NCBI RefSeq assembly: GCF_021531595.1
Contig: NZ_JADYUD010000017.1
Coordinates: forward strand, 1-40,258
Reading direction: 5' to 3'
From: Fusobacterium perfoetens
Lineage (GTDB): Bacteria; Fusobacteriota; Fusobacteriia; Fusobacteriales; Fusobacteriaceae
Length of the DNA: 40,258 bases
Shown: one piece after another, positions 486-35,923 of the stretch
How positions within the stretch are numbered: the stretch's first letter is position 1
Layout of the letters: the number at the start of each line of letters is the position of its first letter
Made by a program: the position numbers and the translations under genes
The notes under the pieces: generated by a model
The model's input: the letters and a program-made list of their open reading frames with translations, nothing else
What the model was told of the DNA's origin: nothing
Database searches by the model: none

Positions 486-570
486 GGAAGCATAGCATAA
501 TGGTAATGCAGCACTTTGCTAAAGTGCCGAGGTAAAACTCTTACAGGTTCAAATCCTGTTGCTTCCGCCA
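486..570 (+). tRNA. tRNA-Ser (anticodon GCT)
   Basis: The full cloverleaf is visible. The acceptor GGAAGCA (486-492) pairs with TGCTTCC (560-566). The D arm is GCAT/ATGC. The anticodon stem GCACT/AGTGC closes the loop TTGCTAA with anticodon GCT at 518-520. A 15-nt variable region contains a GAG/CTC pairing, as expected for serine tRNA. The T arm is ACAGG/CCTGT with loop TTCAAAT. The CCA end is encoded (568-570). It reads AGC and AGU codons. It lies inside phage-type DNA, so it is either phage-encoded or a host gene at the prophage edge. Confidence 0.88.
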
Positions 571-1818: not shown

Positions 1819-2667
1819 ATGAGTAATAGAATAAAAGCTAGAGAATTAAATGGCATAGTTTATTATCAAATACCTAAATGGCTTATGGATTTATTTATTG
1901 ACGGCAAAATATCATCAGGTGCTTTTAAAACTTATGCACTTATGTATGAAAGATTAAGAATGTCTGCAAAAAATAATTGGATTGATAATGATGGAGATGT
2001 TTATATCAAATACTCTTATGATGAACTTATAGAAGATTTAAAATGTAACAGCAGAACAACTGTTTCAAATAATCTTAAAGAATTACAAGAACTAGATATA
2101 GTAGATAAAGTGAAATGTTTTAGTTCAAGCAATATTTATTATCTTAAAGTTAAAAGTACAGAAGATTGCACTAGTACAAATAATTACACTAGTACAGAAA
2201 CTTGTACTAGTACAAAAAAGTGTACTGACAGTAGTACAGAAGATTGGACTACAGTAGTACAGAAAACTTGTACGACTAGTAGTACAGAAAACTTGTACGC
2301 TAGTAAGAATAACTTTAAAAAGAATAACGATAGTAAGAATGATGTTCCTCTTAACGAGGAATCAGTCAATCGTGCTAAGAATTTAGTTGAATTACAAAAC
2401 ATTGCTACAAACTCAACAGGTTTAAATAAAATACAAGTAGATGGAGTAATAAAACCTTATATTTATAAAGATATAGATTTAACTATTTTGATACAGAAAA
2501 TAAAAGAATCAGATTTTTTAATGGGCAAATGCAGTAATAAACCTACAATAGCACACTTTACACAACTTAGTATGCTTAATAAAATCTTAGCTGATTATTA
2601 TAAAAACAAGGTTAGTGTGACGGAACAGTCTACAAGTAAAGACCCTTCAAGAAAGAGATTGTGGTAA
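1819..2667 (+). CDS. Replication initiator protein (282 aa)
   Basis: The ATG at 1819 follows AAAGGAG with 8-nt spacing. Residues 1-115 resemble a winged-helix replication initiator: PKWLMDLFIDGKISSGAFKTYALMYERL, then a SYDELIEDLKCNSRTTVSNNLKEL helix-turn-helix. Residues about 116-165 are a low-complexity Ser/Thr/Cys linker encoded by ACTAGTACA-type DNA repeats. Residues about 180-282 form a helical C-terminal domain. The gene lies directly upstream of the DnaB helicase, the usual order for phage replication modules (lambda O/P-like or RepA/DnaB). It probably binds the repeats within its own gene and loads the helicase. The domain assignment is from pattern only. Confidence 0.7.
   Translation: MSNRIKARELNGIVYYQIPKWLMDLFIDGKISSGAFKTYALMYERLRMSAKNNWIDNDGDVYIKYSYDELIEDLKCNSRTTVSNNLKELQELDIVDKVKCFSSSNIYYLKVKSTEDCTSTNNYTSTETCTSTKKCTDSSTEDWTTVVQKTCTTSSTENLYASKNNFKKNNDSKNDVPLNEESVNRAKNLVELQNIATNSTGLNKIQVDGVIKPYIYKDIDLTILIQKIKESDFLMGKCSNKPTIAHFTQLSMLNKILADYYKNKVSVTEQSTSKDPSRKRLW
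2155..2299 (+). repeat. Iteron-like repeats inside the initiator gene, candidate origin
   Basis: ACTAGTACA recurs at about 2169, 2188 and 2205, with further AGTACAGAA copies at 2155 and 2232. A 20-bp unit TAGTACAGAAAACTTGTACG occurs twice, at 2255-2274 and 2280-2299. The palindrome TTGTACTAGTACAA lies near 2202. Phage lambda and many Gram-positive phages have their origin as iterons within the initiator gene. By analogy this is the likely replication origin. Confidence 0.55.
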
Positions 2668-2669
2668 AT

Positions 2670-4886
2670 ATGAAAAATAAACCTGAATACGATTTACTTT
2701 CTTATCTTGTTTTAAAAAATCAGTTTATAACAGATAAAGTTTTTAAGGAGATATATAATTATAAAAATTATTTTAGTTTAGAAGGGCAAAAGTTAGTAGA
2801 ACTTCTTAAAGACAAGAGGAAAAATAAAGAAGTTATAGACATAGAAATATTTTTAAATCTTTCTGAGGACTATACAAGAAAAGTATTAGACAATGGAGAT
2901 ATGGACATTGGAACAGAGTTTGCAACTAAGAGTTATAAAGAACTTCTTACAGAGTTAGAAAAAAATCACGCAAAAGATATAGCACAGAATATTATAAATT
3001 CTAACAATGTATCTGAAATAGCAGAGGGAATAGACAAACTAAAAACTGTTTTTACTAAAACTAAGCAAATAAATAAAATAAATCTAAAAGAAGCTTCACT
3101 TAAATTTTTTAAAAATATAGATAACTTAGATATGCAGAATAGTGTAAAAGCTAAAAATTGGTATAGATTTAACAAGGTTGTGAAACTATACAAGGGAGAT
3201 GTTACTGTTATAGCTGGTAGACCAGGATGTTTACCTGCAGGGACAGAAGTTTTAACAAAAAAAGGTTGGCTTGATATATCAAAATGGACTAATGAAGAAA
3301 TATTAGAAATAAATTATAAAACTAACACAAACCAAATTGATATAACAGGACAATTTGCAAAACCTCTTATGTATCACAAATATAACACAACTGAGTTTTA
3401 TAGAATGAAAAATAAAGTTGGAACAATGGATTTAGTAAGTTCAGTAGAACATAGACATCCACATATTTCAGAAAAAGGTTTTTGTAGGGAATTCACAACA
3501 AGAGAACTTTATAATTCTTGGATAAATAAAGAGGGTAATCCTCATATAATTAATATTCCAGAAACTTTTGAGTGGTTTGGAAGTGGCATAAATTACAGTG
3601 ATGAATATATTAGATTAAAAGTTGCAGTTTTTGCAGATGGAAGTTTTTTAAAAAGCAAAGGTAGTAAAAGATGTTATATAAATATAAAAAAAGATAGAAA
3701 AAAATTAAGATTAGAAGACCTTTTAGAAAAAAATAACTTAGATTACAGAGTAAAAGAGCATGCTGACGAATATAAAAGATATTCATTTTTAATGGATAAC
3801 AGAGATAAAGTTTTTAAATATGATTGGTTTTTAAAAACAAATAAACATCAAAGAGAAATTATAATGGATGAACTTAAATATTGGGATAGCTATATCTGTG
3901 GAGGTAATAGATTATTTACTTTTTCTACTGTTAATAAAGAAACTGCTGAAACTATACAGTTAATAGCAACTTCTTTAGGATACAGAGCAACTTTAAGAAT
4001 AGAAAAAAGAGAAAATAAATATAAAAATGACATTATATACAACCTTAATTTTTCTAAAGGAACAAAATATGGATGTAGAACTCTAAAAAAATCTGATGTT
4101 AATTCATTTGAAAAAGTTGAAGCAGGAAAATATATGTATTGTTTTACAACAAATACTGGTTTTTTCTTGATTAGACAAAATAATAAAATATATGTTACTG
4201 GAAATTCAGGTAAAACAACATTTGCATTATCTCTAGCTTTAGAGTTTGCTAAGAATGGGAGTAAAGGCTTATTTTTCTCACTAGAAATGGGAGAGGAACA
4301 AATAATAAACAGAATGATGTCTCAGCTTAGTCTTGTGCCTATAAATAAATTTCAGGACAGTTTTGAAGCTAAGAATTTAAGTAAAGAGGAACATGGCAGA
4401 ATTACAAATGCAGTTGAAGAAATGCAGAGACTTGCAGATAATCTTCAGATAATCTCAGGAAACTTTTCTAGTGATGACATTTTAGAAATTGCAGAAAATG
4501 ACAAGCCTGAATTTATAATAATTGACTATATGCAGTTATTAAGAGCAACAGAAGGTCGTGGAAGAGTTGAAGAAATAACTTACTTATCTATGGAGCTTAA
4601 AAGAATAGCTATGAAACTTCAAATTCCTATCATAGAACTTTGTCAGCTTTCAAGAGCAGTAGAGCAGAGGGGAGATAAAAAACCTATATTATCAGACCTT
4701 AGAGAATCAGGACAAATTGAACAGGACGCTAGTGTTGTAATAGGAATTTATAGAGAAGCATACTACAACGAAGAAGCAGACCCTGAGAGCATGGATTGTA
4801 TTATTTTAAAAAATAGAAATGGAAGCACAGGAACAATGCCTTTTAAATTTCTAGGTGCAGTACAAAAGGTTTATGAGGGGGTATAA
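2670..4886 (+). CDS. dnaB: DnaB-type replicative helicase precursor containing an intein
   Basis: This is a 5'-3' replicative helicase of the RecA-fold DnaB family. The ATG at 2670 is preferred over the GTG at 2661, which overlaps the previous stop. The helicase is split by an intein at residues 187-512. The flanks join to GRPG-SGKTTFALSLALEF, an intact Walker A. Walker B is FIIIDY with Asp near residue 619, followed by the DnaB-typical LSRAVEQRGDKKPILSDLRESG motif. After splicing the enzyme would be 412 aa, normal for phage DnaB. Without splicing the ATP site is broken, so activity depends on splicing. It follows the initiator by 2 bp and is probably co-translated with it. Confidence 0.9.
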   Translation: MKNKPEYDLLSYLVLKNQFITDKVFKEIYNYKNYFSLEGQKLVELLKDKRKNKEVIDIEIFLNLSEDYTRKVLDNGDMDIGTEFATKSYKELLTELEKNHAKDIAQNIINSNNVSEIAEGIDKLKTVFTKTKQINKINLKEASLKFFKNIDNLDMQNSVKAKNWYRFNKVVKLYKGDVTVIAGRPGCLPAGTEVLTKKGWLDISKWTNEEILEINYKTNTNQIDITGQFAKPLMYHKYNTTEFYRMKNKVGTMDLVSSVEHRHPHISEKGFCREFTTRELYNSWINKEGNPHIINIPETFEWFGSGINYSDEYIRLKVAVFADGSFLKSKGSKRCYINIKKDRKKLRLEDLLEKNNLDYRVKEHADEYKRYSFLMDNRDKVFKYDWFLKTNKHQREIIMDELKYWDSYICGGNRLFTFSTVNKETAETIQLIATSLGYRATLRIEKRENKYKNDIIYNLNFSKGTKYGCRTLKKSDVNSFEKVEAGKYMYCFTTNTGFFLIRQNNKIYVTGNSGKTTFALSLALEFAKNGSKGLFFSLEMGEEQIINRMMSQLSLVPINKFQDSFEAKNLSKEEHGRITNAVEEMQRLADNLQIISGNFSSDDILEIAENDKPEFIIIDYMQLLRATEGRGRVEEITYLSMELKRIAMKLQIPIIELCQLSRAVEQRGDKKPILSDLRESGQIEQDASVVIGIYREAYYNEEADPESMDCIILKNRNGSTGTMPFKFLGAVQKVYEGV
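3228..4205 (+). other. Intein with LAGLIDADG-type homing endonuclease, in the P-loop
   Basis: The intein spans 326 codons (Cys187 to Asn512 of the precursor). Splice block A is CLPAGTEVLTKKGW. Block B resembles SSVEHRHPH. The C-terminal blocks read GFFLIRQNNKIYVTGN, followed by Ser as the +1 nucleophile. The penultimate residue is Gly instead of the common His. A dodecapeptide motif LKVAVFADG (residues 316-324) and a later ELKYWDSYICGG segment mark a DOD homing endonuclease. The insertion at the ATP-binding loop is a known DnaB intein position. The catalytic residues look intact. Confidence 0.88.
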
Positions 4887-5409: not shown

Positions 5410-6174
5410 ATGCAGTATGTAATTGACATAGATAGAGAGAATAATCATATAAAGGTTTTAGTTCCCTCAGCAAAAGGAACTATTACAGAAGAAAAAGTAA
5501 AAAATTTCTTTGGAGTTCTTAAACAATCTACATGGGAAGTTGAGCCTGTACAAAGATTATCTTTGGATCAAATGAAAATGATATTTGCATTGTGCAGAGA
5601 TTATTCCGAGATAATAGGATATGAACCTGAAGAATTAAGAGAACTTCTAAAAGCTGAATTTTGTATAAAAAATTGTGTAGAAGATTTTTCATGTAGTCCT
5701 TACAAGAGAAATGCAGCTACTATGAAAATTGCAACTGATTTTATTCAATTTATTATTGAACATGCTTTAAATTTAACAGGTTGTACATTAAAAGTTGTAG
5801 AGGGACATGGTAAAAATAGAATTGTAAGGTCTGCAAGAGAGATAGTTCCTGATATAAGAAAATATGTTATAGCTTGTCTTATGAATAAGACTTGTGCAAT
5901 ATGTGGAGCTACAACAGAACAAAGAGAAATAGACCTACACCATTGGGATAGTGTAAATAGCATTGGGGGCTATGAACATGATGATGGATTGAAAACAAGG
6001 TTTATATCTTTATGTAGAGAACATCATACAGAGTTCCATAATATAGAAGCTAAAGCATTTTCTGAAAAATATCATATTGACGGAGTATGGCTTTCTGAAA
6101 ATATAGTTAAAAAATTAAAAAAAGATAAAGTTTATCCAAACCATTTTAAAGCATTTAAGGAGACGGCAGAATGA
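5410..6174 (+). CDS. Phage NinB/HNH-type nuclease (putative HNHc nuclease)
   Basis: This 254-aa protein has an N-terminal half (about 1-125) typical of phage proteins with a NinB-like recombination fold: RLSLDQMKMIFALCRDYSEIIG, then ELRELLKAEFCIKN. Its C-terminal HNH zinc-finger nuclease has CAICGATTEQREIDLHHWDSV followed by SLCREHHTEFHN. The Cys pair, the double His and the final H-x-x-x-H are all present, so the nuclease site looks complete. Such proteins occur in replication/recombination modules and are thought to process recombination intermediates. The ribosome site is AAAGGTGG. The next gene overlaps its stop by 4 bp. Confidence 0.75.
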   Translation: MQYVIDIDRENNHIKVLVPSAKGTITEEKVKNFFGVLKQSTWEVEPVQRLSLDQMKMIFALCRDYSEIIGYEPEELRELLKAEFCIKNCVEDFSCSPYKRNAATMKIATDFIQFIIEHALNLTGCTLKVVEGHGKNRIVRSAREIVPDIRKYVIACLMNKTCAICGATTEQREIDLHHWDSVNSIGGYEHDDGLKTRFISLCREHHTEFHNIEAKAFSEKYHIDGVWLSENIVKKLKKDKVYPNHFKAFKETAE

Positions 6175-6503
6175 GAAAATTAAAGTCAGAATTTATAAAA
6201 GACGAGCACAGAACACAACTTATGAAAGTATTTTACAACAGAATTCTTGACGGAGATGAGAAGAATTATGAGTTTATAGGTGTTTATGAATACAAGAATT
6301 ATGAGATATACTTTGACCATATTCCTGATAAAAAGAAAATCATTAAGCATATTACAATTAAAAATATAAAAGGCAAGGAAATAAGACAAGATGATTTAGA
6401 GCTTATAGCAAATCATTTTGTAGGAGATAACTATTCTGTTCAATACGGCTTGTTTGATAATAATATGGCTAGCATTTGGGAAGAAAAAGGAACTGTCAAC
6501 TAA
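6171..6503 (+). CDS. Hypothetical early protein (110 aa)
   Basis: ATG overlaps the stop of the nuclease gene (ATGA) and AAGGAGA lies upstream, so the two are coupled. The protein alternates charged and aromatic residues (EYKNYEIYFDHIPDKKK) and ends acidic. No known motif was seen. It is the last plus-strand gene before the noncoding island. Just after it, AACTGTCA and TGACAGTT form an 8-bp hairpin that spans the stop codon. Confidence 0.65.
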   Translation: MRKLKSEFIKDEHRTQLMKVFYNRILDGDEKNYEFIGVYEYKNYEIYFDHIPDKKKIIKHITIKNIKGKEIRQDDLELIANHFVGDNYSVQYGLFDNNMASIWEEKGTVN

Positions 6504-6574: not shown

Positions 6575-6605
6575 ACGGTTAGGTCAAATCATAAAACGGT
6601 TAGGT
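6575..6605 (+). repeat. Paired ACGGTTAGGT repeats
   Basis: ACGGTTAGGT occurs at 6575-6584 and 6596-6605, exactly 21 bp (two helical turns) apart. A third copy lies at 7124-7133. The pair sits at the left edge of the noncoding island and the third at its right edge, so they may be binding sites for one regulator. Confidence 0.55.
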
Positions 6606-6620
6606 GGAAACAAGAAATAT

Positions 6621-6642
6621 AAAAACGGCTCATAAGAGCCGT
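6621..6642 (-). terminator. Minus-strand terminator
   Basis: ACGGCTC and GAGCCGT form a 7-bp stem with a 4-nt loop. Read on the minus strand, the stem is followed by TTTTT. It lies just beyond the 42-aa minus-strand gene and would end the 5S-like transcript. Confidence 0.5.
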
Positions 6643-6657
6643 AAATATATTGGTGGT

Positions 6658-6786
6658 TTATTTATTTTTATAAAATAAACGCACATAGTAACATACCATT
6701 ACAAATTCTCTGGCAAAGATTAAGTAAGGTGTTACTAACTGAACGACTGGTAACCATTCAGCTAAAGTGTTGAAAAAAATGTGCAT
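6658..6786 (-). CDS. Small membrane protein on the minus strand (42 aa)
   Basis: The ATG has a perfect ribosome site, AAGGAGGTG, on the minus strand. The protein starts MHIFFNTLAEW, has a hydrophobic helix (LPVVQLVTPYLIF, about 12-24), a second nonpolar part and a basic end (FYKNK). It lies 30 nt downstream of the 5S-like RNA on the same strand and is followed by a terminator, so the two may share a transcript. The function is unknown. It resembles the other small single-helix peptides of this prophage only in general character. Confidence 0.5.
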   Translation of the reverse strand: MHIFFNTLAEWLPVVQLVTPYLIFAREFVMVCYYVRLFYKNK

Positions 6787-6816
6787 TATTCACCTCCTTG
6801 CAAAAGCTAAGGTGTA

Positions 6817-6934
6817 AAATAGCTAAATTCTTTTTCCCATTTAGCTCCCCAAACAGTATTAAGAACTATCTTAGGCTTGACTTCTAGGTTCGGTATGTAA
6901 CTAGGTATTTCTCCCTAAAGATATTAAACTATTT
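6817..6934 (-). rRNA. 5S rRNA-like RNA encoded by the prophage (118 nt)
   Basis: Read on the minus strand this is a 118-nt RNA that aligns to 5S rRNA with matching numbering. Helix I forms between AAATAGTT (1-8) and AGCTATTT (111-118, one wobble). Helix II pairs CTTTAGG with CCTAAG. Helix III is CTAG (31-34) with CTAG (48-51), as in E. coli CUGA/UCAG. Loop C carries CATACCGAAC (38-47), nearly identical to the universally conserved CAUGCCGAAC, followed by AGAAGTCAAGC. TACTGTTTGGGG near 77-88 corresponds to helix IV. Loop E and helix V are diverged. The 5' half, which holds the L5/L18 binding region in ribosomes, is best conserved. It is not in an rRNA operon. Confidence 0.8.
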
Positions 6935-6935
6935 A

Positions 6936-6967
6936 AGAAAAAAAGCTACCTTGCCAGTGGTAGCTTT
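6936..6967 (-). terminator. Terminator hairpin immediately 5' of the 5S-like RNA
   Basis: On the minus strand AAAGCTACC pairs with GGTAGCTTT (9 bp, 8-nt loop) and continues into TTTTTTTC. This is a classical terminator shape that ends about 2 nt before the 5S-like RNA. Either a short leader RNA ends here and readthrough is regulated, or the hairpin is a processing signal. Confidence 0.7.
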
Positions 6968-7038
6968 CTCAGGTGATACTAATGCAAATTTTTTAACACT
7001 TTTAAAATTTTAAGTCCATATTACCAGTACAGACTTTT

Positions 7039-7067
7039 ATAACACATTTTCAATAAATGTATAACAA
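7039..7067 (-). promoter_or_regulatory. Candidate minus-strand promoter for leader and 5S-like RNA
   Basis: On the minus strand TTGTTA (7062-7067) and TGTTAT (7039-7044) are 17 bp apart. Alternative boxes (TTGAAA, TATAAA) occur nearby in very A/T-rich DNA, so the exact promoter is uncertain. From here a leader of about 70-90 nt would reach the terminator hairpin. Confidence 0.35.
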
Positions 7068-7123
7068 AATTATATATTATATTTTCAAAAAAGTAAAGAA
7101 GAACATTAGAATTTTTTTAATAA

Positions 7124-7531: not shown

Positions 7532-8083
7532 ATGAGAAAAATAAAACCTAAAATGACTAAAAAAGAAAAAATAGAGAATAAAAATAGAAAAGTAATAGAT
7601 AAAATTTTTAGACCTGTACATAATACAGAAATTATATTAGCAACTTTTATAGATTATCTACAAGAAGATAGAGATTTATATAACAATAAAGAGACTTATA
7701 TAAAACCTTATTTAAAAGGATATTTAACTTCTGTTATAAAGAAATTAAAAATCTTTATTCAATATGATGAGGTTATAAAACATAAAGGTTATAACAAAGT
7801 TAAAGACATTATAGAAAATAATTTTAAAGAAGAATTAAATTTAGATGTTAAATCTAGAAAAGAATTTTTTGAAAAAGAAAGTGAAGTTAATTGTAGATTA
7901 TTTAAAACTTATGCATGTGCTTTAACTTGTGTAGGAACAGTCCATGACATGTTTGTCAAAAGAGAAAAAAGTCCAGTCTATAATGAATATAAAGCACAAT
8001 TAAATAGTATATTAAAAGAGTTTAAGATATATGATAATTTTTGGCAAAATGAAGTTGAAAAAATATATGTAACAATAATCTAG
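7532..8083 (+). CDS. Hypothetical protein (183 aa)
   Basis: The start is supported by GAGGAA upstream. The protein is helical and Lys-rich, with a basic N-terminus (KIKPKMTKKEKIENKNRK) and scattered conserved-looking Cys (CRLFKTYACALTC, about 131-143). No family was recognised. It lies between a coiled-coil gene and a DUF3310 gene and is translated in the same direction. Confidence 0.6.
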   Translation: MRKIKPKMTKKEKIENKNRKVIDKIFRPVHNTEIILATFIDYLQEDRDLYNNKETYIKPYLKGYLTSVIKKLKIFIQYDEVIKHKGYNKVKDIIENNFKEELNLDVKSRKEFFEKESEVNCRLFKTYACALTCVGTVHDMFVKREKSPVYNEYKAQLNSILKEFKIYDNFWQNEVEKIYVTII

Positions 8084-8092
8084 GAGGAAAAA

Positions 8093-8431
8093 TTGGAAGC
8101 ATACAATTGTGAAGATTTAAAAAAAGATATATTATTACCAGATAAAAAAATAATAAATGATGAAGTAGAGAAAGAACTTCATAGTCATTATGAGAATACA
8201 GGAATAGAGCCTATTGACTTTATAATGGCAAATAAATACAGCTTTAATCAAGGAAATATAATTAAATATATTCATAGAGTAGGTAAGAAAGCTGGAGAAG
8301 AAAAAAAGGATATTATAAAAATTATAGATTATGCACTACTTACAGCCTATGAGAAAGGAATTGAAGTAGGAGAACAGGAACTACATAAAACAATTAACAA
8401 CAGAATAGAATGGATAGCAAAAAGAAAATAA
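8093..8431 (+). CDS. DUF3310 family phage protein (112 aa)
   Basis: The TTG start at 8093 follows TAGGAGGAAAAA. The core HYENTGIEPIDFIMANKYSFNQGNIIKYIHRVGKK is the characteristic DUF3310 pattern (HY...IEP-D-I....F--GN-IKY--R--KK). It is followed by a helix for dimerisation (DIIKIIDYALLTAYE). This family is common in early regions of phages. The structural fold resembles MazG-like nucleotide hydrolase helices, but the reaction is unproven. Confidence 0.8.
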   Translation: MEAYNCEDLKKDILLPDKKIINDEVEKELHSHYENTGIEPIDFIMANKYSFNQGNIIKYIHRVGKKAGEEKKDIIKIIDYALLTAYEKGIEVGEQELHKTINNRIEWIAKRK

Positions 8432-11183: not shown

Positions 11184-12496
11184 TGAAATTAAAAATAAAA
11201 AAACATTTCTATAAAGTATTAATGGACAATGATTTTGATATTCTTCTTATGATTGGCGGGTATGCAAGTGGAAAAAGTTTTACAGGATTTTTAAAAACAG
11301 CTTTACTTGCTACACAAGAGAAAAGAAAAATGTTAGTTGTCAGAAAAGTTTATTCAACTTTAAAAGATAGCTGTTTTGAAGATTTAAAAGAAGCCTTTGA
11401 TACTTTAGGAGTCAGCAACAGGTGGAAGTTAATAAAATCTCCATATGAAGCAGAAAATAAGAGAAATAGCTCTAAAATCATTTTTAGAGGAATGGACGAA
11501 TATAGAAAATTAAAATCTATAAAAAATATTGACTATATCTTAATTGAAGAAGCTGACGAATTGAGTATAGAAGATATAAAAGAACTTAGAAAAAGATTAA
11601 GAGTTCTTGGTATAAAAAAACATTTAGTTTTAATGTGTAACCCTGTTTCAAGATTATCTTCGATATATAGAATGTTCTTTACAGAAGAGGGATTTAACTT
11701 TGATGAAGAAGAACTTTATAAAAAAAGAACATTAACTAAAATTGACAGTATTACACTAGAGGACGGAACAAAAGAAAATTTTATTGTAAAAGTTCATCAT
11801 TCGACTTACAGGGACAATCCATTTCTTCCTGCAAGTTTTATTTATGAGTTGGAAAGTGAAAAAGACCCTCGTATTAAAAGAATTGCTAGAGACGGGAAAT
11901 TTGGAGCAGATGGAGATTTAGTTTTATATAATGCTGTATTTGAAGAAGATGTATATGAAAGATATGTTAAGGATAAACTTACTAAAAGGGACGAATACAG
12001 AGGTATTGACTGGGGGCATTCTATTTCATATACCTGTGGTTTGAAAATGGCAGTTAATAAAGTTCTAAATGAACTGTATGTATATTGGGAATATTATGAT
12101 AAAGGTAAAACTACACAAGAGTTAATGCAAGGGTTACAGCCTATGAAAGATAATAATATTTCAATTTATGCAGATAGTGCTTCATCTCAAACAATAGCAG
12201 ATTTTTATGATGAGGGATTTAACATTGACGGAGCAACAAAAGGAAAAGGCTCTGTTGAATACCACGAACAGCTGTTAAGAAGTTTTTCAAGGATTGTAAT
12301 TGATATAAATAGATGTCCAAACACTAAAAAAGAGGCTGAGGAATGTGTATATAAGAAAGATAAAAACGGAGAAATTCAAGCAGGAAAATATAATCTTGAT
12401 GCACACAGTTTTGACGCAATGAGTTATGGACTAGAAGAATATGATTTTATACCTTTAAAAAATAGACTTAGAAAGAAAAAATATATTGGTATTTAG
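11183..12496 (+). CDS. terL: Terminase large subunit, PBSX type (437 aa)
   Basis: This is the packaging ATPase and nuclease. Walker A is GGYASGKS at residues 25-32. Walker B with its catalytic Glu is YILIEEADEL (about 114-123). The C-terminal nuclease keeps the acidic residues of the RNase H-like fold: GIDWGHS (about 273), YADSASSQT (about 331) and DAHSFDAMSYGLE (about 405-417). Length and motif order are typical of terminase_3/XtmB proteins. The start codon overlaps the terS stop (TAATG). Confidence 0.92.
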   Translation: MKLKIKKHFYKVLMDNDFDILLMIGGYASGKSFTGFLKTALLATQEKRKMLVVRKVYSTLKDSCFEDLKEAFDTLGVSNRWKLIKSPYEAENKRNSSKIIFRGMDEYRKLKSIKNIDYILIEEADELSIEDIKELRKRLRVLGIKKHLVLMCNPVSRLSSIYRMFFTEEGFNFDEEELYKKRTLTKIDSITLEDGTKENFIVKVHHSTYRDNPFLPASFIYELESEKDPRIKRIARDGKFGADGDLVLYNAVFEEDVYERYVKDKLTKRDEYRGIDWGHSISYTCGLKMAVNKVLNELYVYWEYYDKGKTTQELMQGLQPMKDNNISIYADSASSQTIADFYDEGFNIDGATKGKGSVEYHEQLLRSFSRIVIDINRCPNTKKEAEECVYKKDKNGEIQAGKYNLDAHSFDAMSYGLEEYDFIPLKNRLRKKKYIGI

Positions 12497-30452: not shown

Positions 30453-31364
30453 ATGAGTAAAGTAATTACTGATGAAAATCAATTAAATACAGAAGTTGAT
30501 GATTTAATAACTGAAGATTATGCTCTTGAAGTTTTAGGATTAAAAAATCCTGCTGACTTTAGAAAGTTTTCAAGGTCATTTATGAAATTATCTAAGATTG
30601 CAAAAGGTATAGAAAATGTATCAAATAAAGTTGCAAATAAAACAGAGTTAGGAAGAGTTAAAATAGGAGATAATCTTACTATAACAGAAGATGGTACATT
30701 GAGTGGAAATCCTGAATATACACATCCAGTAGGAGCAGGATATAAGCATATTCCTACAGGAGGAACAGTTGGACAAGTTTTAAAAAACAATGGAAATGGT
30801 AGTGCTGAATGGGGAAATTTGAGTTTAGAAAACTATTATACTAAACCTGAAATAGATACTAAATTTAAAAACTATTGTCCAATCTCGGTTGGAAGTATAG
30901 ATGTTCGTTATGATAATAAAAATCCTGCAGAGTTATATCCAAGCACGACTTGGGAACTTCTAACAACTGGAAAATATATACAAACTGGTAATACTCCACT
31001 TCAAACTGGTGGTAGTAATTCTGTAAGTATCCTTAAGGAAAATCTTCCAAACATTAAATTAAAAATAGATAGTGTGTCTGCTACTATAAAAAATCACTAT
31101 CATTTTATAGCTTATGGTGCTAGAAATGACGGAGCAGGAAATCTTACAAACACTAACTATTTAATAAAAGAATGTGCAAAAGGTGCTTATACAGACTCTT
31201 TTTTAAAAGGTGTTAGTAATGTAGCTAATGTAGGAAAAACATCAGACTCAGGTTCAGGGAGTACAAGTTCAATATCTCCAAGCACAGAAGTACTTGGAAA
31301 TGGCACACCTCTAACAATAGAACCTTCTTACATAACTCTAAAGTTTTGGAAAAGACTAACTTAA
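30453..31364 (+). CDS. Tail fibre protein, currently expressed form (303 aa)
   Basis: The ATG follows AAAGGAGG. The constant part is residues 1-136 (baseplate-attachment shaft). The C-terminal domain starts at a recombination-like site encoding TKFK. It then reads NYCPISVGSIDVRYDNKNPAELYPSTTWELL and ends ITLKFWKRLT, the gp10/collar-type receptor-binding end. Three silent versions of this C-terminal end lie downstream. The current form (type A) is therefore one of several host-range variants. The N-terminal part is joined seamlessly. Confidence 0.85.
   Translation: MSKVITDENQLNTEVDDLITEDYALEVLGLKNPADFRKFSRSFMKLSKIAKGIENVSNKVANKTELGRVKIGDNLTITEDGTLSGNPEYTHPVGAGYKHIPTGGTVGQVLKNNGNGSAEWGNLSLENYYTKPEIDTKFKNYCPISVGSIDVRYDNKNPAELYPSTTWELLTTGKYIQTGNTPLQTGGSNSVSILKENLPNIKLKIDSVSATIKNHYHFIAYGARNDGAGNLTNTNYLIKECAKGAYTDSFLKGVSNVANVGKTSDSGSGSTSSISPSTEVLGNGTPLTIEPSYITLKFWKRLT
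30859..30870 (+). repeat. Fibre-switching site 1 (plus orientation)
   Basis: CTAAATTTAAAA at the junction between the constant fibre shaft and the variable end. Four copies in total were found at cassette edges, two in each orientation. Confidence 0.65.
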
Positions 31365-31849
31365 TCTTTTCCATGCCTTTACTGTAATATGTTCGGGATT
31401 AATAGATAATGGTGTTCCACTACCCATTTGAGCAGTGTAGGGACTTGCAGAATTTGTACTACCTGTCCAAGAACGAGAAGCTTGGAATTCTATCTTTTCA
31501 CCACCAATTACAGCACCAGCACCTAAGTCTCCAACCCAACCAGTTCTTAATGCACGAAAAGCTCCTGATGTGTATTTATCAACTGATTGAATAGAAACAA
31601 ATGCACCGGTAATATCCATTGTACCCCTAGTTAAGTTAAAAGATTCTACTTGTAGCTTTTCTGCAGGTAAATTGGTTTTAGAGATATTTACACTATTACT
31701 TCCTGCTTGTATTAATGGAGTTGCTCCTGTCTTGATAAACTTATTGTCAGGTAGCAGTTCCCATGTTGTACTTGGATATAATTCAGCAGGATTTGAGGTA
31801 TTATACATGAACAGTATTCCTCCGATAGGAACAGGAACTAAGTTCAAAT
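31356..31849 (-). pseudogene. Silent tail fibre C-terminal cassette B1
   Basis: The reading frame encodes a complete alternative receptor-binding end (LVPVPIGGILFMYNTSNPAELYPSTTWELL, ending ITVKAWKRLS), without the shaft and without a proper start codon or ribosome site. It is convergent with the expressed end, overlapping it by 9 bp at the stop codons. It would be expressed after inversion of 30859-31861. It is intact, so it is a reserve cassette, not a decayed gene. Confidence 0.85.
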
Positions 31850-31861
31850 TTTTAAATTTAG
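31850..31861 (-). repeat. Fibre-switching site 2 (minus orientation)
   Basis: TTTTAAATTTAG on the plus strand is the inverse of site 1. Together the two sites enclose cassettes A1 and B1 (about 1.0 kb). Confidence 0.65.
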
Positions 31862-31895
31862 AAACTTTTATAGTAAAAAAATAAGGAGAATAATC

Positions 31896-32021
31896 ATGAA
31901 AAAAGTAATTAAAAAAAATTTACCTAAGAAAAAAATAAATGTAGAACATTTTACTTTAGTAAAACAAACCCATAATCAGACATCAACGATTTCACAGTAT
32001 CCTTCAATTAAATATTCATAA
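31896..32021 (+). CDS. Small basic protein (41 aa)
   Basis: The ATG at 31896 follows AAGGAGAA and lies directly beyond site 2. The N-terminus is very basic (KKVIKKNLPKKK). The 3' end overlaps the convergent DUF2441-like gene by 46 bp. It has no recognised family, and the coding assignment is tentative. Confidence 0.35.
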   Translation: MKKVIKKNLPKKKINVEHFTLVKQTHNQTSTISQYPSIKYS

Positions 32022-32527
32022 ATAGGAATAATATTAAGTTTTGGAAAGGCTTCCTTAAAGTCAATACCTGCAAGGTAATAAATATAATGGTCTTGATTAT
32101 ATGGTGGAGCTGTTCTTAAAAAATCTATCCAATTCATGTCGCATTTTATTATTTTAGCTTCTGGAGAAGGAATTATTTTCTTAATAGGAGAATTCCAGTT
32201 GTATTTAATTTTTATTAAATTTAAGGTTTCTAAATCAGCAACAGCAAAAATACAAGAAAATCTTGAAGGATAATCTTTATAATATGCTTGACGAATAAAC
32301 TCTATATTTGCTTCTATTGCTAAAAGATTATTATGTATAAATTTAGGTAAAATTTTATTGTTATAAAGGTCATTTTGTAATCGTGAAAGTTCAAGGCACG
32401 AGTTTATTCTAATTTCTTTATTTAAAGAAGTATCTATGTTTCTTATATTTTTCATTTCATCATGAATGTGTATATAGTAAAAAGATTGCATTTCTTCGTC
32501 TTGATTTAATATTTTTATTTTAATCAC
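31976..32527 (-). CDS. DUF2441-like accessory protein (183 aa), possible ADP-ribosyltransferase fold
   Basis: The minus-strand start follows GAGGTGATT. The pattern FYYIHIHDEM, then NLLAIEANIEFIRQAYYKDYPSRFSCIFAVADLE (about 68-101), and later KIIKCDMNWIDFLR resembles DUF2441 proteins. Their P-S-R-x-S-x-I-F region looks like a shifted ART/RES-type fold. It has its own promoter on the minus strand, opposite to all late genes, so it is probably expressed in the lysogen (a moron). The biochemical role is unknown and the fold is inferred. Confidence 0.5.
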   Translation of the reverse strand: MIKIKILNQDEEMQSFYYIHIHDEMKNIRNIDTSLNKEIRINSCLELSRLQNDLYNNKILPKFIHNNLLAIEANIEFIRQAYYKDYPSRFSCIFAVADLETLNLIKIKYNWNSPIKKIIPSPEAKIIKCDMNWIDFLRTAPPYNQDHYIYYLAGIDFKEAFPKLNIIPIYEYLIEGYCEIVDV

Positions 32528-32552
32528 CTCGTAAAAAAGTTATTTTAGAATA

Positions 32553-32581
32553 ATTATAACTTTTTGGGGAAACACAATCAA
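32553..32581 (-). promoter_or_regulatory. Promoter of the DUF2441-like gene
   Basis: On the minus strand TTGATT (32576-32581) and TATAAT (32553-32558) are 17 bp apart. It lies just upstream of the gene and opposite to late transcription. Confidence 0.7.
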
Positions 32582-32641
32582 ATATATGATAAATATTTTT
32601 TAATTTTAATATAATCAATTTTTTTAGAAAGGAGATATAAA

Positions 32642-33592
32642 ATGTTTTATTACTTAGATAAAAAAGAAATTTTAGAAAATCATTTACCGAAAATGTATTA
32701 TAAATCCGAAAATGCTTTAAACGAAGAAGAAAAAGAGGAATTATTAAAACAATGCAAAGAAAATTTTGGAAATATAACTTTAATAGAATATGAAGCAGAC
32801 TATCTTCCAAGCTATCTTTACATAGACGAGCAAGGAAAAGTTAAAGAATATATTCCTGTTTCTACTTTTGCAGAAGAAAGACTTTTAGATGAAACAGAAA
32901 CTATTTCCAAAGAGGATATATTTGGAGAAGAGGATAATAATAACTATGTTTACATAGATAAAGAAGAGTGCTTAAAAAATTATTCTCCTTGTGTATGCAG
33001 AGTTTCAAGAGGAAGAAGAATTTTAAATTATAAAGAACTTTACGGTGGAAAAGTTCTTGAATATATAGGCGAAAATATGGCTGACCTCCCAAATGAAGTT
33101 ATATATGATTCTGAAACAGACCTAGTAAGAGGAATGACAGAATATGAAAAAGTTAAGTATAACAAAAGAAAACTTGCTGAAAATGAAGTTGTTCTTGAGA
33201 AGAAAAAAGAAATTGTTACTATAAATGACGGACAATATGTAAATGAGAATGAAGAAATAATTACTGTTCCTAGATTAGAAGGACAAAATATTATTGTGCA
33301 AGAATGGGATAAGAAAAATCATGTATGGATTGATAAAACAACAAATTTAGATATAGTTCAATCGCAATATAGAGAATATGAAGGAATGGATACTCCTTCA
33401 ACTCTACAAGAAATGAAATTACAAGATGAAGCTTTAGCTACTGAATATCTAAATATGATGATAGAACTTAGAGGGCTTATTTATACATTAAGTGCTCAAG
33501 AAACTCAACCAGTTGGATATGCTGCAATTCATATTCCTGAACCTTCTAATAAATTAAAAGAATTTAAAAATAAATTTAAACTAACAAAATAA
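32642..33592 (+). CDS. Tail fibre-associated protein (316 aa), possible fibre assembly factor
   Basis: The ATG follows AAAGGAGAT. The protein is acidic in its first 100 residues and has a repeat-like YIDKEECLKNY segment near the middle, similar to its own start (YYLDKKEILENH). It ends with PEPSNKLKEFKNKFK, a motif shared with the following gene. Its position after the fibre suggests a fibre chaperone or accessory structural protein. No firm family was recognised. Confidence 0.55.
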   Translation: MFYYLDKKEILENHLPKMYYKSENALNEEEKEELLKQCKENFGNITLIEYEADYLPSYLYIDEQGKVKEYIPVSTFAEERLLDETETISKEDIFGEEDNNNYVYIDKEECLKNYSPCVCRVSRGRRILNYKELYGGKVLEYIGENMADLPNEVIYDSETDLVRGMTEYEKVKYNKRKLAENEVVLEKKKEIVTINDGQYVNENEEIITVPRLEGQNIIVQEWDKKNHVWIDKTTNLDIVQSQYREYEGMDTPSTLQEMKLQDEALATEYLNMMIELRGLIYTLSAQETQPVGYAAIHIPEPSNKLKEFKNKFKLTK

Positions 33593-33607
33593 AGGAGATG
33601 ATGTTTT

Positions 33608-33916
33608 ATGTTAAACAGAGCAGAATTAGAAATTATGAGAGAGATTTACGAAAGAGAAACAGGAATGCTAGATTTAAAAGAAAAATATGAGGCATACAAG
33701 AAACTTGATACACCTAGAAATTTTGAAAAAATGAAAAGAGAATGTGTGCTTGATGATTATTTGAAATTCATGGAAGATTGTGAAAACTTTTTTGAAAACG
33801 ATGCTTTAATAGTTGAAGATGTTTCTGAATACAAAATTGAAGCAAGAATAGAACTTCCTAAGCCTTCGGCAGCACTTGAGAAGTTTAAAAATAAATTTAA
33901 TAAGTTTTTTAATTAA
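33608..33916 (+). CDS. Small fibre-associated protein (102 aa)
   Basis: The ATG at 33608 follows AAAGGAGATG. The C-terminus (ELPKPSAALEKFKNKFNKFF) is related to that of the previous gene (PEPSNKLKEFKNKFK), suggesting a common binding partner. The rest is helical and charged. It lies just before the recombinase. The function is not known. Confidence 0.55.
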   Translation: MLNRAELEIMREIYERETGMLDLKEKYEAYKKLDTPRNFEKMKRECVLDDYLKFMEDCENFFENDALIVEDVSEYKIEARIELPKPSAALEKFKNKFNKFFN

Positions 33917-33928
33917 AAAATATATCTT

Positions 33929-33961
33929 CCTGATAATATAGGGTTAATTTATATTATCAGG
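33929..33961 (+). promoter_or_regulatory. Perfect 12-bp inverted repeat overlapping the recombinase ribosome site
   Basis: CCTGATAATATA (33929-33940) and TATATTATCAGG (33950-33961) are perfect complements with a 9-bp spacer. The right arm covers the start of the CAGGAGGA ribosome site. It could be a recombinase binding site (its size is right), a repressor operator, or an RNA hairpin that hides the ribosome site. Confidence 0.6.
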
Positions 33962-33969
33962 AGGATTTT

Positions 33970-34914
33970 ATGAAAAGAAACTTAGATTTATACAACGAAT
34001 ATTTAGAAAGCTGTTATGCAACTCACTATGAAACTAAAGATACCACTTATGTTACTTATAAGAGTTACATGACACAGTTTATTAAATATCTTAAAGAGTT
34101 TGAGAATGATAGATATTTGATAAGTAAAGATACTTTAAAAATTATTGTTCCTATCTTGGAGAGGTATATAAATTATTGCAGAGAAAAAGGTAATCATGCA
34201 CAGAATATTAAAAATAAGATTGTAGCTATATCAGCATTTTATCGTTGGTGTGTAAGAAGAGATAAAATTCAATATCATCCTTTCAATGACAAGATAGAAA
34301 GATTAAGAGTTACAGCACAAGACAAGGTAAGGAAAGAATATTATCTTACTTGGAAACAGATTTTTACAGTAGAAATACTTATGGGGCAAAGTAGAAAGTT
34401 TGATTTAAGAAGTAAGTTGTTGTGGCAATTATTCTTGGATAGTGGTTTTAGAATATCAGCAATTCATAGCTTGAAATTATCTCAGTTAGATATAGAAAAT
34501 TGCTGTTTTCACAATGTTAAAGAGAAAATGGGAAAGATTAGAACTCTATATTTTTACTCATCTACAAAGGATTTAATGCTTAAATATCTCACAGAAAGAA
34601 GTAAAAAAGGAGTGGATACAGACTATATTTTCTATATTAGGCATAATCACGAATGGAAACAAATGTCGCAGATAGCTATAAGAAAAAGAGTAAGAAAAAT
34701 GGGAGAACTTATTGGAATAAAAGGTTTATATCCTCATACTCTTAGAAAAACATCTATAAATAATGTGTCAAAGTTGCTTGATGTAAAAAGTGCAAGTGAA
34801 TTTGCAGGACATAATAGTACAGCAGTTACAGAAAATCATTATATTCAACATCAAAATGATGAAATACAAAGAGATAGAATACTTCTTATGAGGAAAAATG
34901 CAGGGCTAATTTAG
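33970..34914 (+). CDS. Tyrosine recombinase, candidate tail fibre invertase (314 aa)
   Basis: All catalytic residues are present: Arg161 (GFRISAI), a Lys in KEKMGKIRTL (184-193), His256 and Arg259 (HTLRKT), His281 (AGH) and Tyr291 (NHY). The first 110 residues form the SAM-like core-binding domain. It resembles XerC/D-type enzymes. The gene is surrounded by silent fibre cassettes, each flanked by CTAAATTTAAAA, and its stop lies 13 bp before switching site 3. This context makes a DNA-inversion role likely. It could also be the phage integrase, since no other was seen. Confidence 0.85.
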   Translation: MKRNLDLYNEYLESCYATHYETKDTTYVTYKSYMTQFIKYLKEFENDRYLISKDTLKIIVPILERYINYCREKGNHAQNIKNKIVAISAFYRWCVRRDKIQYHPFNDKIERLRVTAQDKVRKEYYLTWKQIFTVEILMGQSRKFDLRSKLLWQLFLDSGFRISAIHSLKLSQLDIENCCFHNVKEKMGKIRTLYFYSSTKDLMLKYLTERSKKGVDTDYIFYIRHNHEWKQMSQIAIRKRVRKMGELIGIKGLYPHTLRKTSINNVSKLLDVKSASEFAGHNSTAVTENHYIQHQNDEIQRDRILLMRKNAGLI

Positions 34915-34926
34915 TAAGAATAAGTA

Positions 34927-34938
34927 CTAAATTTAAAA
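34927..34938 (+). repeat. Fibre-switching site 3 (plus orientation)
   Basis: CTAAATTTAAAA starts 13 bp after the recombinase stop. It is followed by the B2 cassette, without any shaft region. Confidence 0.65.
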
Positions 34939-35432
34939 ATTTGAACTTAGTTCCTGTACCTGTTGGTGGTATTTTATTCATGTATAACACAAGTAATCCT
35001 GCTGAATTATACCCAAGTACGACTTGGGAACTGTTACCTGATAATAAGCTTTTAAAAACTGGAAGTACTCCATTACAGCAGAACGGAAGTAATTCTATCA
35101 AAATTGCTAAAGCTAATTTACCTGCTGAAAAATTACAAGTAGAAAAAACATCTGTATCAGGAATAAATCATTATCACTATATGATAAATACAGATACAAC
35201 AGGTTCTCTTACTATAACTGGGACAGGATATCTGGCAAAAGTTGGTTCGTTTGGTGGTTATGGTAACTATAATTTAGCTACAACATCAAGAACTCCAACA
35301 TTGAGTAAGACTTCTGATTCAGGAAGTGGCACATCTTATGTTTCTCCATATACTACTAATATGGGTAATGGTACTCCTATTTCTATCAATCCCGAACATA
35401 TTACAGTAAAAGCATGGAAGAGATTAAGTTAA
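34939..35432 (+). pseudogene. Silent tail fibre C-terminal cassette B2
   Basis: Encodes LVPVPVGGILFMYNTSNPAELYPSTTWELL and ends ITVKAWKRLS. It is close to B1 at the ends but different in the central receptor-contact part (about residues 60-130). It has no start of its own with a ribosome site. The apparent TTG is inside the repeated region. It is a complete, silent alternative end. Confidence 0.85.
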
Positions 35433-35923
35433 TCTTTTCCAAAACTTAAGTGTTATGTAGGCAGGTTGAATAGATAAAGCTGTACCACTTCCTAGTGCCT
35501 CTGTATATGGACTTGCAGAAGAAGAACCATTACCTGATTTAGAAGTTTTACCCACTGTTGCGACAGTAGAGTTCCCAGTTAAAATATATCTTTCGTAACC
35601 ACTATGTCCATTGTATCTAGCAAGATATGTGGCACTAGTTAATGAAGTAGCAGCTGTATTTCCGTTAACTGTACTAGTGTTAGCAATAAAGTGTTCGTGT
35701 TCTATGCCCGAGATAGAAAATTGGGCTACTTTTAGTTTAATGTTTGGAAGATTAGCCTTTGCAATACTTAAAGAATTACTTCCACCTGTACTTAAAGGAG
35801 TATTACCTGTTCTAATATACTTATCAGAAGTTACGAGTTCCCAAGTAGTACCACTGTAAAGTTCTGCAGGGTTTTTATTATCATAACGAACATCTATACT
35901 ACCAACAGATATCGGACAGAAAA
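35424..35923 (-). pseudogene. Silent tail fibre C-terminal cassette A2
   Basis: Read on the minus strand from site 4, it encodes a type A end: FCPISVGSIDVRYDNKNPAEL, then a Gly-rich centre different from the expressed A1, and the end ITLKFWKRLT-like. It is convergent with B2 and overlaps it by 9 bp at the stop codons, just as A1 overlaps B1. No start codon or ribosome site is present. It is probably expressed after DNA inversion. Confidence 0.82.

Follow-up and report, generated by a model that had tools for sequence, protein, structure and literature searches.

A 5S rRNA-like RNA within a compact cassette of a Fusobacterium perfoetens prophage and other mobile elements

The contig NZ_JADYUD010000017.1 of Fusobacterium perfoetens (assembly GCF_021531595.1), which was analysed over its whole length of 40,258 nucleotides and is hereafter called the window, carries on its minus strand an RNA with the fold of 5S ribosomal RNA (rRNA). 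This 5S rRNA-fold domain is part of a compact mobile-element unit consisting of a leader, a terminator hairpin, the 5S-like RNA, a strong ribosome-binding site (RBS), a hydrophobic open reading frame (ORF) of 21-42 codons and a terminator. The same order of parts was identified in five cassettes, that of the window and those of the loci L256, L197, L352 and L353. To our knowledge, this cassette has hitherto not been described.

Identity of the 5S-like RNA and organization of the window cassette

The 5S-like RNA is located at 6816..6934 on the minus strand (119 nt). After Rfam cmscan of the window, the family RF00001 (5S_rRNA) was matched at 6934-6816 over the full model (positions 1-120 of 120) with 49.3 bits (E 1.9e-7), above the gathering threshold of 38 bits, and a tRNA was the only other above-threshold match among all Rfam families. 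An independent covariance model, R1, constructed from 22 Fusobacteriaceae cellular 5S sequences with the phage copy excluded to avoid circularity, recovered the same RNA with 56.5 bits (E 1e-13). The first-pass annotation, made from the sequence alone, had proposed a 5S rRNA-like RNA on this strand at 6817-6934, correct to one base, and held that such an RNA should score better in a covariance search than shuffled sequence, an expectation with which the full-length match agrees. The likeness in helix III and loop C that it described is also apparent, this part of the window RNA reading ATACCTAGTTACATACCGAACCTAGAAGTCAAGCC. The folding energy of the RNA by itself does not stand out from that of shuffled sequence (z -0.28), and the evidence for its identity is thus the family profile and the covariation described below, not the folding energy.

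The host genome (G000; 2.06 Mb in 36 contigs, the window being the entire contig C17) contains one 5S besides the window copy, at C1:132178-132294 (79.6 bits; 133 bits by R1, the training set of which includes this gene), and its stretch corresponding to helix III and loop C is ACACCTAGTTACATTCCGAACCTAGAAGTTAAGCC. In the plasmid collection, the flanks of this gene are most similar to Fusobacterium vincentii, which makes a host in Fusobacterium or a close relative probable. The comparison with the host 5S that had been suggested gave an identity, over model positions, of 59% overall, 75% for the beta domain (loop A, helix II, loop B, helix III and loop C) and 47% for the gamma domain (the helix IV/V part). 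Likewise, 28 of the 37 positions near-invariant in the beta domain of cellular 5S are retained in the window RNA, and 16 of the 33 in the gamma domain, in good agreement with the earlier description of loop E and the distal helices as diverged. With such identities, the window RNA did not arise by recent copying of the host 5S gene. The beta domain of 5S rRNA is bound by the ribosomal proteins uL5 and uL18, and the gamma domain holds loop E, the site of bL25. This third 5S-binding protein is absent from Fusobacteria (PMC10931766), which fits the fact that the Fusobacteriota copies have lost the gamma domain. As a separate observation, the host genus seems to carry standalone cellular 5S genes (L001, which is the C1 copy, and L006, L007, L016, L017, L030 and L079); L001 has its own TTGACA promoter, and the standalone copies differ in helix I from copies at contig ends, which are probably those of rRNA operons.

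The 5S-like RNA is not linked to 16S or 23S, since cmscan detected no further rRNA in the window, and the contig contains RepA_N, DnaB, terminase, Mu-type portal and phage-integrase-family genes, so that both the location outside an rRNA operon and the prophage origin proposed at first hold. Its score places the RNA in RF00001, but its context is not that of a ribosomal 5S gene. The description as a single gene falls short, since the RNA sits within a unit of terminator, 5S-like RNA, RBS and tiny ORF, and this unit is found again in other temperate phages; the upstream terminator, the downstream RBS, the 42-codon ORF and the second terminator had been overlooked.

Along the minus strand, the window cassette begins with a candidate sigma-70 promoter, TTTACT-17-TATAAT (7069..7097), matching the consensus at 10 of 12 positions; eight promoter-like sites were found in the 901-base region against 4.5 expected, which makes this a weak candidate. 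It is followed by the leader RNA (6969..7062), weakly resembling the anti-Shine-Dalgarno streptococcal csRNA (31.4 bits, below the gathering threshold of 57), in which UCACCU at 6971..6976 is complementary to AGGUGA of the RBS of the ORF, CACCU being paired with AGGUG in the minimum-energy fold. The intrinsic-terminator-like hairpin GAAAGCUACC-N8-GGUAGCUUU with its U tract (6938..6968) stands directly upstream of the 5S-like RNA, which begins a few bases past the end of the U tract. The consensus scan found no promoter-like site between this hairpin and the 5S-like RNA, whereas several cellular standalone 5S genes of this group have a promoter of TTGACA..TATTAT type right at the 5S start. Downstream of the RNA are the RBS AAGGAGGTG (6791..6799), the hydrophobic 42-codon ORF MHIFFNTLAEWLPVVQLVTPYLIFAREFVMVCYYVRLFYKNK (6658..6786) and the cassette terminator ACGGCTC-TTAT-GAGCCGT with TTTTAT (6625..6642). 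Neither strand carries an ORF of 50 or more amino acids between 6504 and 7171, and the cassette is antisense to the rightward genes of the phage. A competition between helix I and the 3' terminator hairpin (AGCUAAAU/AUUUAGCU) was considered but dropped because it was seen in the window only.

Two observations were made around the cassette. The sequence CGGTTAGGT is present at 6576, 6597 and 7125, three copies against 0.01 expected, and two of them, as AAACGGTTAGGTGG, flank the cassette, one copy lying in a strong minus-strand promoter (6587-6559); these repeats are likely operator sites. The minus-strand segment 6587-6490 comprises a strong promoter (11/12) and, within 45-70 nt, a strong terminator (6516-6490), possibly giving a short transcript that runs antisense over the end of the gene at 6171-6503.

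Recurrence and conservation of the cassette

The tiny ORFs of the five cassettes consist of 21-42 codons, are equipped with an RBS and show a maximum 15-residue hydropathy of 1.57-2.85. In all five, the RBS and ORF lie 22-36 nt downstream of the 5S-like RNA, which by its position would be part of a 5' leader of the ORF. L256, in a Leptotrichiaceae-like prophage, was found by searching Fusobacteriales genomes with a nearby HNHc_6/phrog_398 protein and scanning the prophage regions with R1; its 5S-like RNA (11443-11552, 65.2 bits by R1) has a minimum-energy fold including the 5S helices I, II and III, and is preceded by a hairpin with a U tract and followed by an RBS, a 21-codon ORF (MSEITILVLALAIYKIIDKLK) and a terminator. 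L197, on an IMG/VR tail-gene contig with tape measure and antirepressor genes, carries a 5S-like RNA at 7998-8112 (71.4 bits) and the ORF MFHFIAYLFIALIYLALAINSYLK. A scan of GTDB contigs with a pattern of 5S core, RBS and ATG yielded 29 loci, mostly true 5S or chance matches, and among them L352 and L353, both of Sulfurovaceae, carry the full unit, with a peptidase-S24 repressor beside the former and a replisome-organizer gene beside the latter. Just past the cassette in L256, at 11730-11890, there is a putative second short RNA of about 130 nt with a TTGACA ... TATAAT promoter and a hairpin with a U tract.

Looser copies were also obtained. A Prevotella nigrescens conjugative plasmid (L372) carries a standalone 5S-like RNA and an IMG/VR contig (L322) a Bacteroidota-like 5S, each with a hydrophobic short ORF further off. 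As an annotated precedent, LoVEphage of Bacteroides carries a standalone 5S, given by the barrnap call in OY731433.1 at 57700-57805 (L373). This 5S is, like the window RNA, phage-borne, standalone and on the strand opposite to its neighbours, but differs in having its own terminator directly after it and no upstream terminator. The corresponding LoVEphage stretch in MW660583.1 (36303-36446, L380) has a coding sequence for a DUF2724 protein overlapping the 5S, and the LoVEphage paper makes no mention of its 5S (PMC8525569). In the census of Fusobacteriota genomes only the window, G089 and G054 stood out. No 5S-like RNA was found in the 21.8 kb examined of Funu2, the nearest isolate by terminase; no match to the region was obtained by BLAST among 50,697 phage records; the 42-aa peptide matched only itself in 61 Fusobacteriaceae genomes; and IMG/VR contained neither relatives of the two flanking 110-aa proteins nor exact DNA patterns of the window-type or Fusobacteriota-type core. 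Several matches were rejected for their context: L128 (IMG/VR), a 5S adjoining a transposase gene of insertion-sequence type; L171, L281, L282 and L317 (IMG/VR), being chromosomal 5S/tRNA or rRNA flanks; L280 (IMG/VR), within a coding region; the plasmid matches in C. difficile, F. polymorphum and Pseudosulfitobacter, belonging to rRNA operons; and those in Aliarcobacter and Segatella, with apparent 23S sequence just upstream.

The enrichment tests for the neighbouring parts were designed after the pattern had been seen, and their p-values are descriptive. A terminator-like hairpin within 60 nt upstream was present in 5/5 cassettes, 0/4 looser copies and 1/116 cellular 5S (p 3e-8 for the cassettes). 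An RBS with a hydrophobic ORF of 15-60 codons within 60 nt was present in all three cassettes not chosen by RBS against 1 of 146 controls (p 7e-6; the count discounts the window's own locus L213, with which two are listed), and in 3/7 when all mobile copies not chosen by RBS were included (p 2e-4).

In an alignment of nine mobile-element copies, fitted to the structure and therefore favouring the result somewhat, 93% of cells were paired, 23 of the 34 pairs were changed on both sides and all nine helix I pairs were compensated. The pairing statistic was reached by none of 500 shuffles, and sliding the partners lowered pairing to 34-44%. The compensatory change in 23/34 pairs indicates that the 5S fold is under selection. 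When L352 and L353 are aligned, their identity is 36-46% outside the unit; it climbs to 52-66% in the leader, starting at about -160, and to 76% in the terminator, and amounts to 74-84% in the 5S and 46-58% in the ORF. Since it rises over the leader and terminator and drops outside, both belong to the unit.

Proposed mechanism and rival explanations

Taking the whole set of observations together, we propose as the most likely explanation, at somewhat less than even confidence, that host factors which handle 5S (uL18/uL5 or the maturation nuclease) are drawn by the 5S fold to the mRNA of a putative tiny membrane peptide. Transcription would start upstream of the hairpin, and only the read-through RNA would contain both the 5S domain and the ORF, because a promoter would not fit into the few bases between the U tract and the 5S-like RNA. 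The 5S domain of this read-through RNA would be treated by the host like 5S rRNA: uL18 and uL5 might bind the intact helix II-III and loop C part, and the helix I stalk may be cleaved, either by a putative L18-dependent 5S maturation nuclease like RNase M5 or through other processing. RNase M5 strictly requires uL18 in B. subtilis (PMC12774634), so that a 5S mimic could tie cleavage to free uL18. The stability of the message, or the release of the ORF from the RBS-occluding leader, would thereby be coupled to the state of host ribosome assembly, and the peptide would act on the membrane like type I toxins or small lysis or exclusion peptides. The orientation antisense to the rightward genes suggests that the cassette is expressed in the lysogen. 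The wider form of the proposal, in which mobile elements of several phyla gate a tiny membrane effector by a 5S mimic sensed by uL5/uL18 or a maturation nuclease, is more doubtful.

The role of the leader in this proposal was examined by RBS accessibility. Inclusion of the leader reduced the predicted accessibility in four of the five cassettes, from 0.27 to 0.01 in the window, 0.72 to 0.26 in L256, 0.38 to 0.07 in L197 and 0.57 to 0.31 in L353, the opposite being predicted for L352. A model in which 5S folding directly frees or hides the RBS was not supported, the enforced fold hardly altering predicted accessibility. Since the leader mostly lowers predicted accessibility and the enforced 5S fold makes little difference, separation of leader and ORF, for instance by cleavage at the stalk, is a better guess than a fold switch.

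Several observations weigh against the proposed recruitment. With the 5S fold enforced, predicted RBS accessibility was unchanged in 4/5 cassettes and raised in L352 without its leader. Leader/RBS complementarity compared with shuffled leaders gave p of 0.06 (the window), 0.02, 0.09, 0.96 and 0.21, not significant case by case. The putative tiny ORFs match no PHROG, Pfam or NCBIfam family, the 42-codon ORF of the window included, and the L352 and L353 ORFs differ by 14, 8 and 18 of 26 at codon positions 1, 2 and 3, which points only mildly to coding selection. The pattern by which these two loci were detected required an RBS. The Bacteroidota-type copies L372 and L322 have no terminator and an ORF 160-190 nt away, the 35.3-bit copy of a Fusobacteriota prophage (G054) has its small hydrophobic ORF upstream and a terminator downstream, and the 5S-like RNA of LoVEphage has no such ORF.

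One alternative is an addiction or exclusion module similar to type I toxin-antitoxin systems. Its ORF would encode a membrane toxin, the terminator-ended leader would be a small antitoxin RNA acting antisense to the RBS, and the 5S-like fold would just stabilize or process the toxin message, binding no ribosomal proteins. In the cassette, as in known prophage units such as yonT/SR6 on SPbeta (PMC5848175), a small membrane peptide, here putative, would be under RNA control on a prophage; toxicity and antisense RNA belong to those units and are only candidate features of the cassette. Tiny hydrophobic ORFs with a strong RBS in temperate-phage regulatory regions near repressors and antirepressors, the lowered RBS accessibility and the weak csRNA match of the window leader would agree with such a module. 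The peptides, however, match no family, the antisense pairing is not significant, and retention of a 5S fold with conserved loop C, instead of any hairpin, is left unexplained. We regard this alternative as rather unlikely, and we know of no prophage type I toxin-antitoxin unit with a 5S-like domain.

Also unlikely, in our estimate, is a free 5S mimic acting in trans, which would enter the 50S subunit or soak up uL5/uL18, the ORF being a separate gene in the unit. The best conservation lies in the uL5/uL18-binding beta domain, the LoVEphage 5S with its own terminator can act only in trans, and a phage precedent at 5S rRNA exists in PhiKZ014, which clamps 5S rRNA on the host ribosome (PMC10914614). 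Such a mimic hardly explains the terminator directly upstream and the RBS and ORF directly downstream in 5/5 cassettes; nor does it agree with the diverged or shortened gamma domain of Fusobacteriota copies or the lack of a promoter-like site where cellular standalone 5S genes have one. As to the roles suggested by the first-pass annotation, uL5/uL18 titration by the window RNA is possible, given the preservation of the helix II-III and loop C domain, and entry into host ribosomes, or the making of specialised ones, appears less likely, because the RNA is coupled to an ORF and its helices IV and V and loop E are diverged. A decaying host-derived 5S pseudogene with chance neighbours, which the low identity to the host gene and the scrambled gamma domain of the window copy would suit, is highly improbable and already disfavoured by the compensatory change over nine copies and by the same neighbours at four other phage loci in at least two phyla.

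Known systems, significance and other features of the contig

Bacterial 5S rRNA (RF00001) resembles the window RNA in the full-length match over the curated threshold, the three-domain layout and the loop C and helix III sequence, and differs in standing in an rRNA operon with 23S, the window RNA having a diverged gamma domain and belonging to a prophage terminator/ORF unit. The nearest mechanisms to the recruitment proposed here are the plant TFIIIA exon and ribosomal-protein leaders. The 5S-mimic exon of plant TFIIIA is reported to bind L5 and to control expression by exon skipping (Hammond et al. 2009, cited in PMC5972288); it shares with the cassette a 5S mimic within a messenger and a 5S-binding ribosomal protein (L5) as controller, but is eukaryotic and non-phage and acts through exon skipping, with L5 binding shown there and proposed for the cassette. 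In the leaders of E. coli rplY (bL25) and other ribosomal-protein genes, a 5S-binding ribosomal protein likewise reads a leader and controls translation (PMC10931766, PMC7247131); the rplY leader, however, is an irregular hairpin in a ribosomal-protein gene, not an entire 5S fold, and Fusobacteria are without bL25. For prophage- or phage-encoded 5S-like RNAs and 5S mimics, no bacterial or phage example was found in the open-licence literature, which does not prove that none exists.

5S rRNA is usually regarded as belonging to the ribosome alone, and its exact role is still debated. The recurrence of the unit in viruses of unrelated bacteria suggests that a part of the ribosome has been reused by viruses as a control or processing device. 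If the proposal is true, an evolutionarily constrained mobile 5S mimic with a tiny membrane ORF would mean that the 5S-uL5-uL18 assembly pathway is read or exploited by phages. The cassette would then sense host ribosome assembly and link it to a peptide for lysis, exclusion or addiction. The copies also provide a natural set of 5S variants for testing which parts of 5S each protein or nuclease needs, and they represent a different class of element hidden by automatic 5S annotation.

Three further features of the phage contig were observed. The DnaB-like helicase gene at 2661-4886 (plus strand) is apparently interrupted at about residues 190-515 by a large insert, CLPAGTEVLTKKGW ... TGNSGKTT, with the appearance of an endonuclease-containing intein. 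The region 31277-35511 is possibly an invertible tail-fibre cassette. Here, a tyrosine recombinase gene (33970-34914) is flanked by similar tail-fibre-like ORFs (31356-31847 minus, 34941-35432 plus), placed so by two long inverted-repeat pairs, one of 218 nt at 79% and the other of 186 nt at 77%. A tRNA-Ser(GCT) gene at 486-570 (plus strand), near the left end of the contig, is either phage-borne or an attachment site.
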